Source: Curvivirga aplysinae
GTDB taxonomy: Bacteria > Pseudomonadota > Alphaproteobacteria > UBA8366 > Aestuariispiraceae
Length of the DNA: 36,422 bases
Assembly: GCF_009711445.1 (NCBI RefSeq)
Contig: NZ_SMMC01000212.1
Span: forward strand, 1 to 36,422
Direction of reading: 5' to 3'
The stretch's first letter is position 1; every line of letters begins with the position of its first letter. The translations under genes and the position numbers were made by a program. A model generated the notes under the pieces. It had not been told where the DNA came from. It did not search any database and saw only the letters and a list, made by a program, of their open reading frames with translations. This document shows, one piece after another, positions 1,128-32,923 of the stretch.

Positions 1128-1343
1128 ATGAGTCGTACATTTAATGCATGGCCCAAAATTATGCGTACATCCACGGCAGCTGCCTATTGTGATATGGGGC
1201 TAAGGACTTTCAAGGCCAGAGTTTCACAAGGCAGGTTCCCTCAACCACTCTTTAAGACTGGCAATCAAAACTATTTTCATAGGGATGAGATCGATAAATA
1301 TTTTTCCAGATATTTCGATGACGATATGCCTGAGGTATTCTAA
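1128..1343 (+). CDS. Small AlpA/excisionase-like DNA-binding protein
   Basis: A 71-residue protein with a predicted short helix-turn-helix: MRTSTAAAYCDMGLRTFKAR, then VSQGRFPQPL, then NQNYFHRDEIDKYF. The pattern of an 'A-A-x-Y' helix, a turn and a final D-E-hydrophobic helix is that of AlpA-type regulators and excisionases. AAGGA lies 8 bases before its ATG. The stop codon TAA (1341-1343) shares its last base with the integrase ATG (1343), so the two genes are translationally coupled. A role in integrase regulation or excision is inferred from this overlap. Confidence 0.7.
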   Translation: MSRTFNAWPKIMRTSTAAAYCDMGLRTFKARVSQGRFPQPLFKTGNQNYFHRDEIDKYFSRYFDDDMPEVF

Positions 1344-2368
1344 TGAAAATTCACCTACCATATGTGAAAGCCTACAAATCCAGAAACAAGTACTACACCT
1401 ATTATCGACGTTCTGGCCTTGAACAAAGAATACGCTCTTCATTTGGAACACCTGAATGGCAGGAAGAATATAATCGCATCCATCTGTCTTTTGAAACAGG
1501 CGCGATCGATACAGGTTTCTATAAAGGGTCAGTTGGATGGCTGATAGGTGACTATATTGCTAGCCACGATTTCAAAAGATTAGCTGAAGAAACCAAAAAA
1601 GACTATCTGCGAACATTGGATGTTTTCAAGGAGAAAATTGGTAAACAGGATTGGTCTAAAATCACCCCTGAGTATTGCGTAAAACTAAGAGATAAAAACT
1701 CTGATGTACCAAGTCGGGCAAATAAGTATCTTTCAATGATCTCTGTTTTAGGCGCCAGAGCCGTTCTATTTGGCCTTGCTGAAAAAGTACCCTCAGAACA
1801 TGTAAAGAAACTCCGACTAGGTGTGGGAAAACGTGCATGGAAGCCTGAAGAACTTTTGAGATTCGAAGCAGAATGTGACAACGAACCAATCTTAACAGCT
1901 TACTATCTTGCTCTATACACGGGACAAAGACGCTCTGACGTTCTATCCATGCAATGGGGCATGATTGAGCAGGATGTCATGATGGTTAAGCAGAATAAAA
2001 CTGGCGAGCAGTTATGGATACCTCTCCACCCTATCCTAAAAGAATATCTAACAACCTTAGAGAAAACCAGCACATTCATTGTCCCTACACGTACAGGAAC
2101 CGCTTATACAGGCGATGGTTTTGAGACATCGTGGAGAAGACAAATCCAAAAGATTGGTATTGCAGGTACAAAAGATAACCCACAATGCACTTTTCATGGC
2201 TTGCGCCGGAATGCCGCTGTAGCCCTTCAAGAAGCTGGCTGTACCGATAGTGAAATCATGGCAATTACTGGACATCGAACAAGCGCAATGGTGCGCCTAT
2301 ATACCCGTGATGCTCGCCAGAAAAAGCTTGCTGAAAATGCAGTAAAGAAATTGAAGAAAAAGAAATAG
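1343..2368 (+). CDS. Tyrosine recombinase / phage-type integrase
   Basis: A 341-residue site-specific recombinase, full length for the family. The catalytic set is visible: Arg196 in TGQRRSDVL, Lys219 in QNKTGEQLWIPL, His285 and Arg288 in HGLRR, His311 in TGHRTSAMVRLY, and the nucleophile Tyr320. The N-terminal half (about residues 5-160) carries an AP2-like arm-binding segment and a SAM-like core-binding domain (KKDYLRTLDVFKEKIG). It catalyses integration and excision of the element by strand exchange through a 3'-phosphotyrosine intermediate. It points at the 3' end of the tRNA-His gene 88 bases downstream, the usual geometry for tRNA-targeting integrases. It appears intact, so the element may still be mobile. 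Confidence 0.93.
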   Translation: MKIHLPYVKAYKSRNKYYTYYRRSGLEQRIRSSFGTPEWQEEYNRIHLSFETGAIDTGFYKGSVGWLIGDYIASHDFKRLAEETKKDYLRTLDVFKEKIGKQDWSKITPEYCVKLRDKNSDVPSRANKYLSMISVLGARAVLFGLAEKVPSEHVKKLRLGVGKRAWKPEELLRFEAECDNEPILTAYYLALYTGQRRSDVLSMQWGMIEQDVMMVKQNKTGEQLWIPLHPILKEYLTTLEKTSTFIVPTRTGTAYTGDGFETSWRRQIQKIGIAGTKDNPQCTFHGLRRNAAVALQEAGCTDSEIMAITGHRTSAMVRLYTRDARQKKLAENAVKKLKKKK

Positions 2369-2456: not shown

Positions 2457-2534
2457 TGGGGTGGCTAATGGGACTTGAACCCACGGCCTCCGGAATCACA
2501 ATCCGGCGCTCTAACCAGCTGAGCTATAGCCACC
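2457..2534 (-). tRNA. tRNA-His (anticodon GTG), probable attachment site
   Basis: The minus strand folds into a complete tRNA: acceptor GTGGCTA/TAGCCAC, D arm with AGCTCAGCTGGTTAGAGC, anticodon stem CCGGA/TCCGG around loop TTGTGAT (anticodon GTG), T arm with GGTTCAAGTCC, and an encoded CCA at 2457-2459. An extra G precedes the acceptor stem (base 2534), the G-1 that marks tRNA-His. The 3' end faces the integrase gene, so the left border of host DNA and one att site are expected within its 3' half. The other att copy must lie outside the window. Confidence 0.96.
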
Positions 2535-30324: not shown

Positions 30325-31239
30325 TCAAGATGCCTTGAGGCGCAACCATTTTTTAATTTGGCCAGGCTTGCTAATCACCAACATATTACCAACTAAGATA
30401 AAGACGACCCCTGCGAGAGCTTCCAATGTCCAGACATAGCCTTCGTAAAAGGTAGAGATACCCAAAGCTACGATAGGGAATAATACCGCCACATAAGCAG
30501 CCCGATCGGCGCCAATATTTTTCACCAAAGTCAAATAACATCCGAATGCGATAACAGATGCAACTGCTGCTAAGTAGAAAAGCGACCATAAATAATCAAA
30601 ACTAGTATCAATTTTAAATTCGATCCCTGCCAATAGAACAATGACAAATGATCCGATCGCACCGTAGGTCATCCCCCATTTGTTATAAGTATTCACGGAA
30701 ATTCCCGCATTATTGTTGCGCATCGCCAACATATTGCCAAAGGATGCAAATAAGGTCGCTAATAGACATAGAGCAAGACCAAACATGGAATCATCTTCGA
30801 AAGATAAGACTTGTACTTCCGGTAAGAATACCAAACCAATACCAAACAGCCCCAAAATACTGGCAATCAAAACACGACCATCTACTTTTTTCTTAAAGAA
30901 GATCGCTTGATTGACGATATTCAAGATCGAAATTGTGCAGAAAACAACAGCAACCAATCCACTAGGCAAATATCCGGTCGCCACATAGAAAGTTGAATAG
31001 TTAAAACTAAACAACATCAAACCTTGGGCAGCCATAAACAAATGGTCTTTAACGCTAAGGTGTTTTTCTTCTTTCTTACGTGAAAACAAATGTACAAAAG
31101 CAAAAAGAATTACACCGGCCAATGCAAAACGATAAGCCACAGAAACAACTGGATGCACCTCCCCCAATTGGAAGGTAATTACAAACCAACTTGATCCCCA
31201 GATTAAAATTGTCAGTAAATAAAATGCTGCATTTTGCAT
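30325..31239 (-). CDS. EamA/DMT-family transporter
   Basis: A 304-residue inner membrane protein with about ten hydrophobic helices in two EamA repeats; the first opens with FYLLTILIWGSSWFVI, the typical DMT entry helix. It should export or exchange small metabolites, and the substrate is unknown. ATG 31239 is chosen for GGGA 6 bases upstream; a TTG two codons earlier opens the frame. It abuts the methyltransferase gene tail to tail with no spacer. Confidence 0.9.
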   Translation of the reverse strand: MQNAAFYLLTILIWGSSWFVITFQLGEVHPVVSVAYRFALAGVILFAFVHLFSRKKEEKHLSVKDHLFMAAQGLMLFSFNYSTFYVATGYLPSGLVAVVFCTISILNIVNQAIFFKKKVDGRVLIASILGLFGIGLVFLPEVQVLSFEDDSMFGLALCLLATLFASFGNMLAMRNNNAGISVNTYNKWGMTYGAIGSFVIVLLAGIEFKIDTSFDYLWSLFYLAAVASVIAFGCYLTLVKNIGADRAAYVAVLFPIVALGISTFYEGYVWTLEALAGVVFILVGNMLVISKPGQIKKWLRLKAS

Positions 31240-31365
31240 TGCCAATCCCGTTCGTATTTATATTTAATTAGAAATCTGTGAAATATTATTACTGTTATAT
31301 ATCACCCCCAACTTTCTGTCCGCCCGTTTCTTGGCATAACATTGTTGATTTAGATGAAACAGTTG

Positions 31366-31412
31366 AAACAAAAAGAAAAAGCGCGGTGCCGACAAGTCGA
31401 TCCACCGCGCTT
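31366..31412 (-). terminator. Strong terminator of the DUF1127 transcript
   Basis: On the minus strand AAGCGCGGTG (from 31412) pairs perfectly with CACCGCGCTT (ending 31379) around a 14-base loop, followed by TTTCTTTTTGTTTC. It lies about 130 bases beyond the DUF1127 stop, giving that mRNA a long 3' untranslated region. Confidence 0.9.
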
Positions 31413-31542
31413 GAATTTTCCGAACCTGCCGAGAATTTAATGCTACCAACCGCATAAAATTCAAGTGGGAGATGGCAGGTTCCAGAGTAGGTTCATTCAG
31501 GGGAAAATGAACCTCAGGGGTCACTTATGAAAAGTGTAAACC
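31366..31542 (-). ncRNA. Candidate 3'-UTR-derived small RNA(s) of the DUF1127 mRNA
   Basis: Between the DUF1127 stop (31543) and the terminator the minus strand folds into discrete hairpins. One is AGGTTCATT-TTCCCCTG-AATGAACCT (31489-31514), 9 perfect pairs with a C-rich loop. A second, two-part hairpin pairs GAACCTGCC with GGCAGGTTC (31474-31482 and 31422-31430) and contains an inner stem (31433-31443 with 31452-31462, 10 of 11 pairs) and a side bulge with TCTCCC. The third is the terminator. A further ACCCCTGAG lies just upstream (31515-31523). C-rich unpaired stretches complementary to ribosome binding sites, downstream of a DUF1127 gene, are the layout known for CcaF1-CcsR of Rhodobacter sphaeroides. 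Transcription and processing are inferred. Confidence 0.55.
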
Positions 31543-31791
31543 TTAGGACATCCAGAAAGGTTTGTTACCTTCACGTAATGCATCTGCGCGTGTCATGCCC
31601 ATGTCATCCAACAAACGTGCATCCAAGGAAGCAAGATGCTTACGCTCTTCAACGCGTGCTTGCCATGTGCGTGCTGCAGTAACTACAGATGCAACCGCAG
31701 AACCAAAACCAGACATGATGTCAGCCATTGTATCTACCAATAGACCAGATGTGCCGCCCAATGTATCAACGAATTGTGTGTTTGTAGCCAT
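31543..31791 (-). CDS. DUF1127 small protein
   Basis: An 82-residue protein whose last 50 residues are a DUF1127 domain: ARTWQARVEERKHLASLDARLLDDMGMTRADALREGNKPFW, with the typical W...R, L..LD..LL.DMG..R and final FW. The N-terminal 35 residues are hydrophobic/small and less conserved. ATG 31791 has GGAGAAG 6 bases upstream; the frame is open to 31833 through a leader hairpin. DUF1127 proteins in alphaproteobacteria are stress-induced, and at least one (CcaF1) binds RNA and affects maturation of small RNAs from its own mRNA. The structured 3' region here suggests a similar role. Confidence 0.85.
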   Translation of the reverse strand: MATNTQFVDTLGGTSGLLVDTMADIMSGFGSAVASVVTAARTWQARVEERKHLASLDARLLDDMGMTRADALREGNKPFWMS

Positions 31792-31810
31792 TTTAACTTC
31801 TCCATCAAAA

Positions 31811-31843
31811 CCCAAATCCGATTTCATCGGCAAATAATTTGGG
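31811..31843 (-). promoter_or_regulatory. Leader hairpin upstream of the DUF1127 gene
   Basis: CCCAAAT (31811-31817) pairs with ATTTGGG (31837-31843), and the inner CCGAT (31818-31822) with ATCGG (31826-31830), leaving a 6-base bulge on one side. It sits about 10 bases upstream of the ribosome binding site (near 31798-31804) in the probable 5' untranslated region and could affect mRNA stability or translation. No confident promoter was found. Confidence 0.4.
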
Positions 31844-32023
31844 TTATATAATTACATTTTTAAAAGTTCGACCGACTTGGATATTCTCGACAAGCCCGTC
31901 TGTTGTCTCTGATGAGCTGTATTTAGGCCTTTTCAATTTTTTCCACAAGAGATAATTTTTTTTGTATCGCATTAGTTTTTTTTATGCGACAGTAACAAAG
32001 TAGTTACACAAATCAGGTGCCCC

Positions 32024-32923
32024 ATGCCAAAACGTCTTCCTCCGTTAAATACCTTAAAAGCTTTCGAAGCATCCGCACGACATCTTTCCTTTACCAAGGC
32101 AGCAGAGGAACTTTTTGTAACACAAGCAGCGGTTTCACACCAAATCAAAACGTTGGAGCAATCCCTTGGTGTACCTTTATTTAAACGTATGAACCGCGCC
32201 TTAATGCTAACCGAAGAAGGTCAGATTTTCTTACCTGCCGTTCGAGAAGCTTTAAAGACTATTCGTGACGCAGTGGAAAAGCTCCATGAACAAGATAGCA
32301 CGGGTACATTAACAGTTTCTTGTATGCCATCCTTTGCCGCCACATGGATGGTGCCACGTCTCGGAAGATTTCATGCGAAACATCCTGATATTGATTTGCG
32401 TATTTCCGCCAATTTTGAACTCACCGACTTCGAACGCGAAGATGTTGATGTTGCTGTTCGTTGGGGGAATGGTCGTGAATATCCGGGTCTGACTTCTGTA
32501 CATTTTATGACTGAAGATATTTTCCCAGTTTGCAGCCCCAAGCTTTTGGAAGAAGGTGAACATCCCCTTCGTCAACCAAGCGATCTCTATTTCCATACAT
32601 TACTGCATGATGAGATGCAGACTGACTGGCGTATGTGGTTAAAAGCAGCAGGTGTCGCAGATTATGTGGATGCCAGTCATGGGATGAGTTTCAACTATTC
32701 CGATTTGGTATTACAAGCTGCCATTGATGGTCAAGGCGTTGCTCTGGGTCGAAGCTTCCTTGCAAAAGACGCCCTGAAACGTGGCCTTCTTGTAAAACCA
32801 TTTGAACTTACCTTACCCGGTGACTTTGCTTATTACTTTGTATGCCCTGAAAACAACTTCCAACGGGCAAAGGTACAAGCATTCCATGATTGGTTAATGG
32901 AAGAAGCTTCTGACGATAGTTAA
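32024..32923 (+). CDS. LysR-family transcriptional regulator, GcvA-like
   Basis: A 299-residue LysR regulator. The winged helix-turn-helix is at 6-65: LPPLNTLKAFEASARHLSFTKAA, then LFVTQAAVSHQIKTLEQSLGVPLF. The effector domain (about 95-295) begins TLTVSCMPSFAATWMVPRLGRFH, which is the GcvA-subgroup pattern. It probably binds DNA as a tetramer and responds to a small ligand. It is divergent from the DUF1127 gene (232 bases between starts), but divergent control of that gene is only a guess. It ends 20 bases from the convergent HAD gene. Confidence 0.92.
   Translation: MPKRLPPLNTLKAFEASARHLSFTKAAEELFVTQAAVSHQIKTLEQSLGVPLFKRMNRALMLTEEGQIFLPAVREALKTIRDAVEKLHEQDSTGTLTVSCMPSFAATWMVPRLGRFHAKHPDIDLRISANFELTDFEREDVDVAVRWGNGREYPGLTSVHFMTEDIFPVCSPKLLEEGEHPLRQPSDLYFHTLLHDEMQTDWRMWLKAAGVADYVDASHGMSFNYSDLVLQAAIDGQGVALGRSFLAKDALKRGLLVKPFELTLPGDFAYYFVCPENNFQRAKVQAFHDWLMEEASDDS

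Follow-up and report, generated by a model that had tools for sequence, protein, structure and literature searches.

A C-rich element centred on CCCCT is kept at the family level in the 3' regions of DUF1127 genes, judging from sequence comparison, and concentrates behind genes whose proteins end in KPFW or a near variant. We studied it at a locus in a 36,422-nt stretch of Curvivirga aplysinae DNA (hereafter the window); the draft genome, of which it is contig C25, measures 3.56 Mb and has a sampled G+C content of 42%. Proteins of the DUF1127 family occur widely and there is no agreement on what they do, with RNA binding in Rhodobacter set against protein contacts in Salmonella and Agrobacterium; RNA binding itself has been called into question (PMC12501420). 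In alphaproteobacteria, short DUF1127 genes frequently occur together with CcsR-like RNAs, an arrangement named CIN1 (PMC10253847). The pairing that underlay the proposal of the sequence-only reading, a CcsR-like unit with a different motif outside Rhodobacterales, had thus been described already; new here is the conservation of the C-rich feature behind KPFW-ending DUF1127 genes. The feature is most likely an element acting at the RNA level, and we put at about 0.5 the probability that the DUF1127 mRNA and a functional 3' region represent the CcaF1/CcsR (CIN1) arrangement in a form specific to this lineage. This suggests that the CcsR idea reaches a further DUF1127 subfamily, in which the pairing motif has changed. 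The conserved C-rich RNA element of that one subfamily, together with one type of divergent regulator, offers a testable handle on DUF1127 gene function, and the unit now has a predicted regulator and promoter.

The gene occupies positions 31543–31791 of the minus strand and encodes an 82-aa protein with the C-terminus KPFWMS. Its assignment to DUF1127 in the sequence-only reading was borne out by the open reading frame and by Pfam (PF06568, 32.7 bits against a curated cut-off of 23.3, E = 6e-8). An EamA-family transporter (30325–31245, Pfam EamA 8e-25) follows on the same strand. Directly before the ribosome-binding site of the DUF1127 gene lies a 5' leader hairpin (31809–31845, minus strand, inverted repeat I7) with a perfect 9-bp stem, an inner 5-bp stem and a T-rich stretch after it. 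It could be an attenuator of the DUF1127 leader; no such hairpin was found in an alignment of 13 relatives. Elsewhere in the window, a phage-type integrase gene (1343–2368, plus strand) adjoins a tRNA-His gene (2457–2533, minus strand), tRNA genes being common sites at which integrative elements attach.

The 177 nt after the DUF1127 stop codon are predicted to fold at −63.0 kcal/mol (z = −5.18), a value matched by none of 200 shuffles. Read along the minus strand, this region starts with a short hairpin (hairpin 0, 31519–31542, −4.3 kcal/mol), which overlaps the partly unpaired C-rich motif ACCCCUGAG (31513–31521, CCCCT unpaired probability 0.61); three relatives carry CCCCTGAG at the equivalent position. 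Hairpin 1 (31489–31514, −11.3 kcal/mol) has a 9-bp stem, whose pairs exceed a probability of 0.9, and the loop UUCCCCUG, in which CCCCT is unpaired with a probability of 1.0. It is followed by the larger, imperfect hairpin 2 (31422–31483, −22.4 kcal/mol), with an unpaired AUCUCCCACUU on its 5' side, and by an intrinsic terminator (31375–31412) recognized from sequence, inverted repeat and fold, in which the perfect 10-bp stem AAGCGCGGTG/CACCGCGCTT precedes a T-rich tract. Direct reading, inverted-repeat analysis and folding thus agree with the sequence-only reading on the hairpin AGGTTCATT-TTCCCCTG-AATGAACCT, the upstream ACCCCTGAG and the terminator stem. The branched hairpin with an unpaired TCTCCC that it described retained its unpaired segment and lost its branching, the predicted structure being one imperfect hairpin. 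The GAACCT/AGGTTC arms do occur in both hairpins, but the exchange of partners proposed for them is unsupported, because forced folds reached only −44.8 and −46.0 kcal/mol (17–18 kcal/mol worse than −63.0) and hairpin 1 pairs with a probability above 0.9. An alternative 10-bp pairing, CTTGAATTTT/AAAATTCAAG, was also rejected (forced fold −44.6 kcal/mol, 18 kcal/mol worse).

To assess conservation, 72 DUF1127 genes were gathered from 14 genomes of the same family, comprising 35 KPFW genes and 37 others, and the 140 nt after each stop codon were scored. CCCCT occurred behind 22/35 KPFW genes and 4/37 other DUF1127 genes (p about 4e-6 to 5e-6), the smallest p-value among all 1024 5-mers, although the KPFW split was spotted in the same data and the contrast is thus partly post hoc. 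The reverse complement AGGGG was evenly distributed (7/35 and 7/37). The KPFW split is not at issue in the comparisons against other genes and shuffles: CCCCT was found 3' of 12/99 non-DUF1127 genes of the family genomes, and it was the commonest hairpin-loop 5-mer in the KPFW 3' regions (11/35; mean 1.6 and maximum 5 in 100 shuffles). In a stricter set of orthologues, one per genome with the same LysR neighbour and at least 59% identity, CCCCT was present within 130 nt in 11 of 14 and absent from three; the shuffle mean was 5.6, and 11 was reached by 2 of 500 shuffles, with related genomes counted as independent in these conservation tests. The C residues of CCCCT were less paired than other C residues in the orthologues (0.54 vs 0.36 unpaired, p = 3e-4), even though CCCCT is predicted to be paired in G002, G004, G010 and one G005 copy. 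Within the C. aplysinae genome, CCCCT lies behind all three DUF1127 genes, compared with 9/127 other sampled 3' intergenic regions, and a non-KPFW DUF1127 gene on contig C63 is followed by the clean hairpin CTTTAGG-UCCCCUG-CCTAAAG. The sequence-only reading had staked its proposal in part on the hairpins and C-rich loops being conserved beside orthologous DUF1127 genes, and the counts for orthologues and KPFW genes show that the C-rich feature is kept in the family.

A DNA similarity search with the 3' region across 39 other genomes of the family and order returned no match, and a scan of genome contigs with a narrow alignment recovered 16 loci. In G005, G012 and G013 (loci L012, L015 and L016), CCCCTGA(G) is followed by the stem GRGGCGGC/GCCGCCUC with the loop CUUCCYCCCUGUUC. 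By direct reading, five of the eight pairs of this stem differ on both sides from GGUUCAUU/AAUGAACC of the window, but these loci are near kin and amount to about one independent comparison of a kept loop on a changed stem, and their minimum-energy folds do not always use that hairpin. Other relatives multiply the motif: G001 has three hairpins in a row with the loops UUCCCUCG, CCCCUA and CCCCC, and G003 has GACCCCTG in three copies.

Divergent from the DUF1127 gene is a LysR-type regulator of the GcvA subfamily (32024–32923, plus strand; Pfam LysR_substrate and HTH_1), which scored 392.8 bits with the NCBIfam GcvA model NF008352 (cut-off 288). Divergent LysR homologues were detected within 1.2 kb of 26/35 KPFW genes of the family, 2/37 of its remaining DUF1127 genes and 46/85 of the KPFW genes sampled class-wide, so the pairing of DUF1127 with a GcvA-type LysR gene recurs across the class. 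A search of an article collection for DUF1127 together with GcvA found no paper. Between the two genes, an operator-like dyad TCGCAT..ATGCGA (31957–31999, inverted repeat I1) aligns with TTCGGATAA..TTATCCGAA, conserved in family genomes; the sequence-only reading had brought up neither this dyad nor the LysR gene. The alignment also delineates a promoter-like element of the DUF1127 gene, CTTGTG-N16-CCTAAAT (31921–31949, minus strand), corresponding to ATGAAAATATATCC-TTGT-N16-CCTATTT in orthologues. A search of this promoter region for the sigma-70 consensus gave no match, and the element only loosely resembles the rhizobial RpoH motif cTTGaa-N16-CgATaT (PMC4167512). Some KPFW genes lacking the LysR neighbour (L028, L032, L036 and L048) have instead a divergent MocR-type gene, recognized by reading from its GntR-like start and aminotransferase-like body; the DUF1127 gene on contig C14 of this genome is among those with such a neighbour. 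The E. coli yjiR-yjiS pair is a similar arrangement.

Beyond the exact motif, we counted C-rich loops, defined more loosely as hairpin loops with at least four C in five pyrimidines. They were found in 14/35 (40%) KPFW 3' regions of the family and 3/99 ordinary 3' regions (p = 3e-7). The frequency was 19% for other DUF1127 genes of the family, 21% for KPFW genes from the rest of the class and 2–3% for ordinary 3' regions, these percentages being uncorrected for genome relatedness. G-rich loops stayed flat at 4–6% in all groups (2/35 in family KPFW genes). This excess of C-rich loops far above background, with no G-rich excess, accords with the proposed CcsR-like unit carrying a loop motif of its own. 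Outside the family, class-wide enrichment of CCCCT itself was only marginal (23/85 vs 22/139, p = 0.03), and its loop count there did not exceed shuffles. DUF1127 genes of Thioclava (L289), a Rhodobacteraceae MAG (L297), Pelagicola (L288) and Mesorhizobium (L287), read in the same way as positive controls, are followed by CCUCCUCCC hairpins, with the true CcsR motif in Thioclava and Mesorhizobium. Some of these CCUCCUCCC-type loops end in CCCUG; UUCCUCCCUG of the relatives and UUCCCCUG of the window could be shortened forms of CcsR-type loops. Non-CcsR-type DUF1127 genes of Rhodobacterales, in Sinirhodobacter (L126) and Thioclava (L128), have UCCCCUG soon after the stop codon, in the latter between the arms CGATCCG and CGGATCG. 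At seven loci (L036, L042, L048, L143, L161, L162 and L173), a KPFW DUF1127 gene is followed at once by what appears by eye to be a PhzF-like reading frame (PIYQ.DAFTD..F.GNPAAV).

The aminotransferase and ggt genes of the window had been suggested as targets. Both genes are backed by Pfam and the sites are present (CAGGGGT and AGGGGT, respectively), but no target is supported, since CAGGGG stands at the ribosome-binding site of only 3/448 sampled genes, which is rare and near chance, and before the aminotransferase start in none of 10 orthologues (G003 has CAGGG). AGGGG as a common ribosome-binding site in this genome was likewise rejected, with 20/448 sampled genes against 19/448 for the reversed pattern. 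A search of the assembly for the exact pattern of the 16S 3' end gave no hit.

We hypothesize that the intergenic dyad is bound by the GcvA-type LysR regulator encoded divergently, which thereby controls DUF1127 transcription, as the conservation of both would suggest, and that transcription ends at the terminator at 31375–31412. The 3' region would then stay on the mRNA or, by analogy with the CcsR RNAs, be cut free by RNase E. Its unpaired CCCCU(G/A) may pair with other mRNAs at ribosome-binding sites of the AGGGG type and reduce the translation of those mRNAs; such an anti-Shine-Dalgarno-like regulatory RNA mechanism is plausible, and we give it even chances. The DUF1127 protein might help with processing of the RNA or serve as its chaperone, in line with reports on CcaF1, or act independently.

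The transporter gene downstream allows another, unlikely, interpretation, in which the 3' hairpins are an mRNA 3' end and a terminator or attenuator inside an operon, fixing the DUF1127:EamA ratio without acting on other mRNAs. The terminator is strong, and EamA homologues are also present at the DUF1127 locus in G004 and in some genomes from the order and class; in L039, L040 and L046 the EamA start lies close behind the DUF1127 stop, which makes an ancestral DUF1127-EamA operon plausible. However, a terminator would not require a separate upstream hairpin bearing CCCCU, the C-rich motif is retained with no EamA gene behind it in most family orthologues, and C-rich loops are enriched while G-rich loops are not.

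The DUF1127 protein or another RNA-binding protein may also bind the loops or use them for processing, in autoregulation of the mRNA rather than through a trans-acting RNA. CcaF1 of Rhodobacter sphaeroides takes part in processing its own cotranscript (PMC10253847), and within the family the motif goes with KPFW-ending proteins rather than with DUF1127 generally, as expected of a protein and its site. We nevertheless consider this improbable, since the non-KPFW gene on contig C63 also has a UCCCCUG loop and the loop composition suits RNA pairing equally. It is more improbable still that this is an ordinary structured 3' end with the C-rich motif as a by-product and that the protein acts through protein-protein contacts, as reported for the short DUF1127 proteins of Agrobacterium and for YjiS of Salmonella; DUF1127 proteins have been described as contacting PhoR, and for YjiS there is no evidence of RNA binding (PMC12501420). 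The motif enrichment and its strand asymmetry argue against such a by-product.

A wider proposal, which we regard as doubtful at present, is that KPFW-ending DUF1127 genes across Alphaproteobacteria make up a separate class of protein-RNA units coupled to a regulator. The regulator, encoded divergently and of the GcvA-type LysR or the MocR type, would switch on a small protein with a C-rich-loop regulatory 3' RNA, as a counterpart of gcvA-gcvB, and the loop would drift by lineage (CCUCC in some, CCCCU here).

Among known systems, no Rfam family reached its cut-off at the locus. BSnc150, a Brucella sRNA, gave 20.3 bits (E = 0.45) on the opposite strand (31449–31513, plus strand) against a gathering cut-off of 73; the shared piece TCAGGGGAAnATGAA is the complement of the C-rich loop. 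In enterobacteria, GcvA activates the divergent sRNA gene gcvB, and in the window, too, a LysR gene of the GcvA subfamily stands divergent to a unit that may include a regulatory RNA; unlike gcvB, this unit encodes a DUF1127 protein, its candidate pairing regions are C-rich and its regulation is predicted. The SmelA075/SmelA099 ('cuckoo') sRNA family of Rhizobiales is similar in its adjacent hairpins with a conserved C-rich loop motif on divergent stems, but those RNAs carry CCUCCUCCC loops (PMC3927594), whereas the window has one clean C-rich hairpin loop and two C-rich stretches outside loops. The closest likeness is to the CcaF1-CcsR1-4 unit of R. sphaeroides and to CIN1, in which a DUF1127 gene and same-strand hairpins with C-rich, anti-Shine-Dalgarno-like loops directly 3' of it precede one terminator. 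CcsR and cuckoo RNAs are characterized by sets of two to four neighbouring hairpins with a CCUCCUCCC loop in each; here the C-rich stretches are UUCCCCUG and AUCUCCCACUU (UCUCCC), with no CCTCC in the 3' region. The layout of the locus would suit processing of an RNA out of the 3' part of a DUF1127 mRNA, as in that RNA family. The protein belongs to the KPFW-ending subfamily and its gene faces a GcvA-type LysR gene; its promoter-like element is a loose candidate for the RpoHI/RpoHII type known from ccaF1, and the RNA is predicted from sequence. Because the arrangement matches and the defining loop motif is absent, we regard the locus as a variant of the CcsR/CIN1 theme rather than a strict member.
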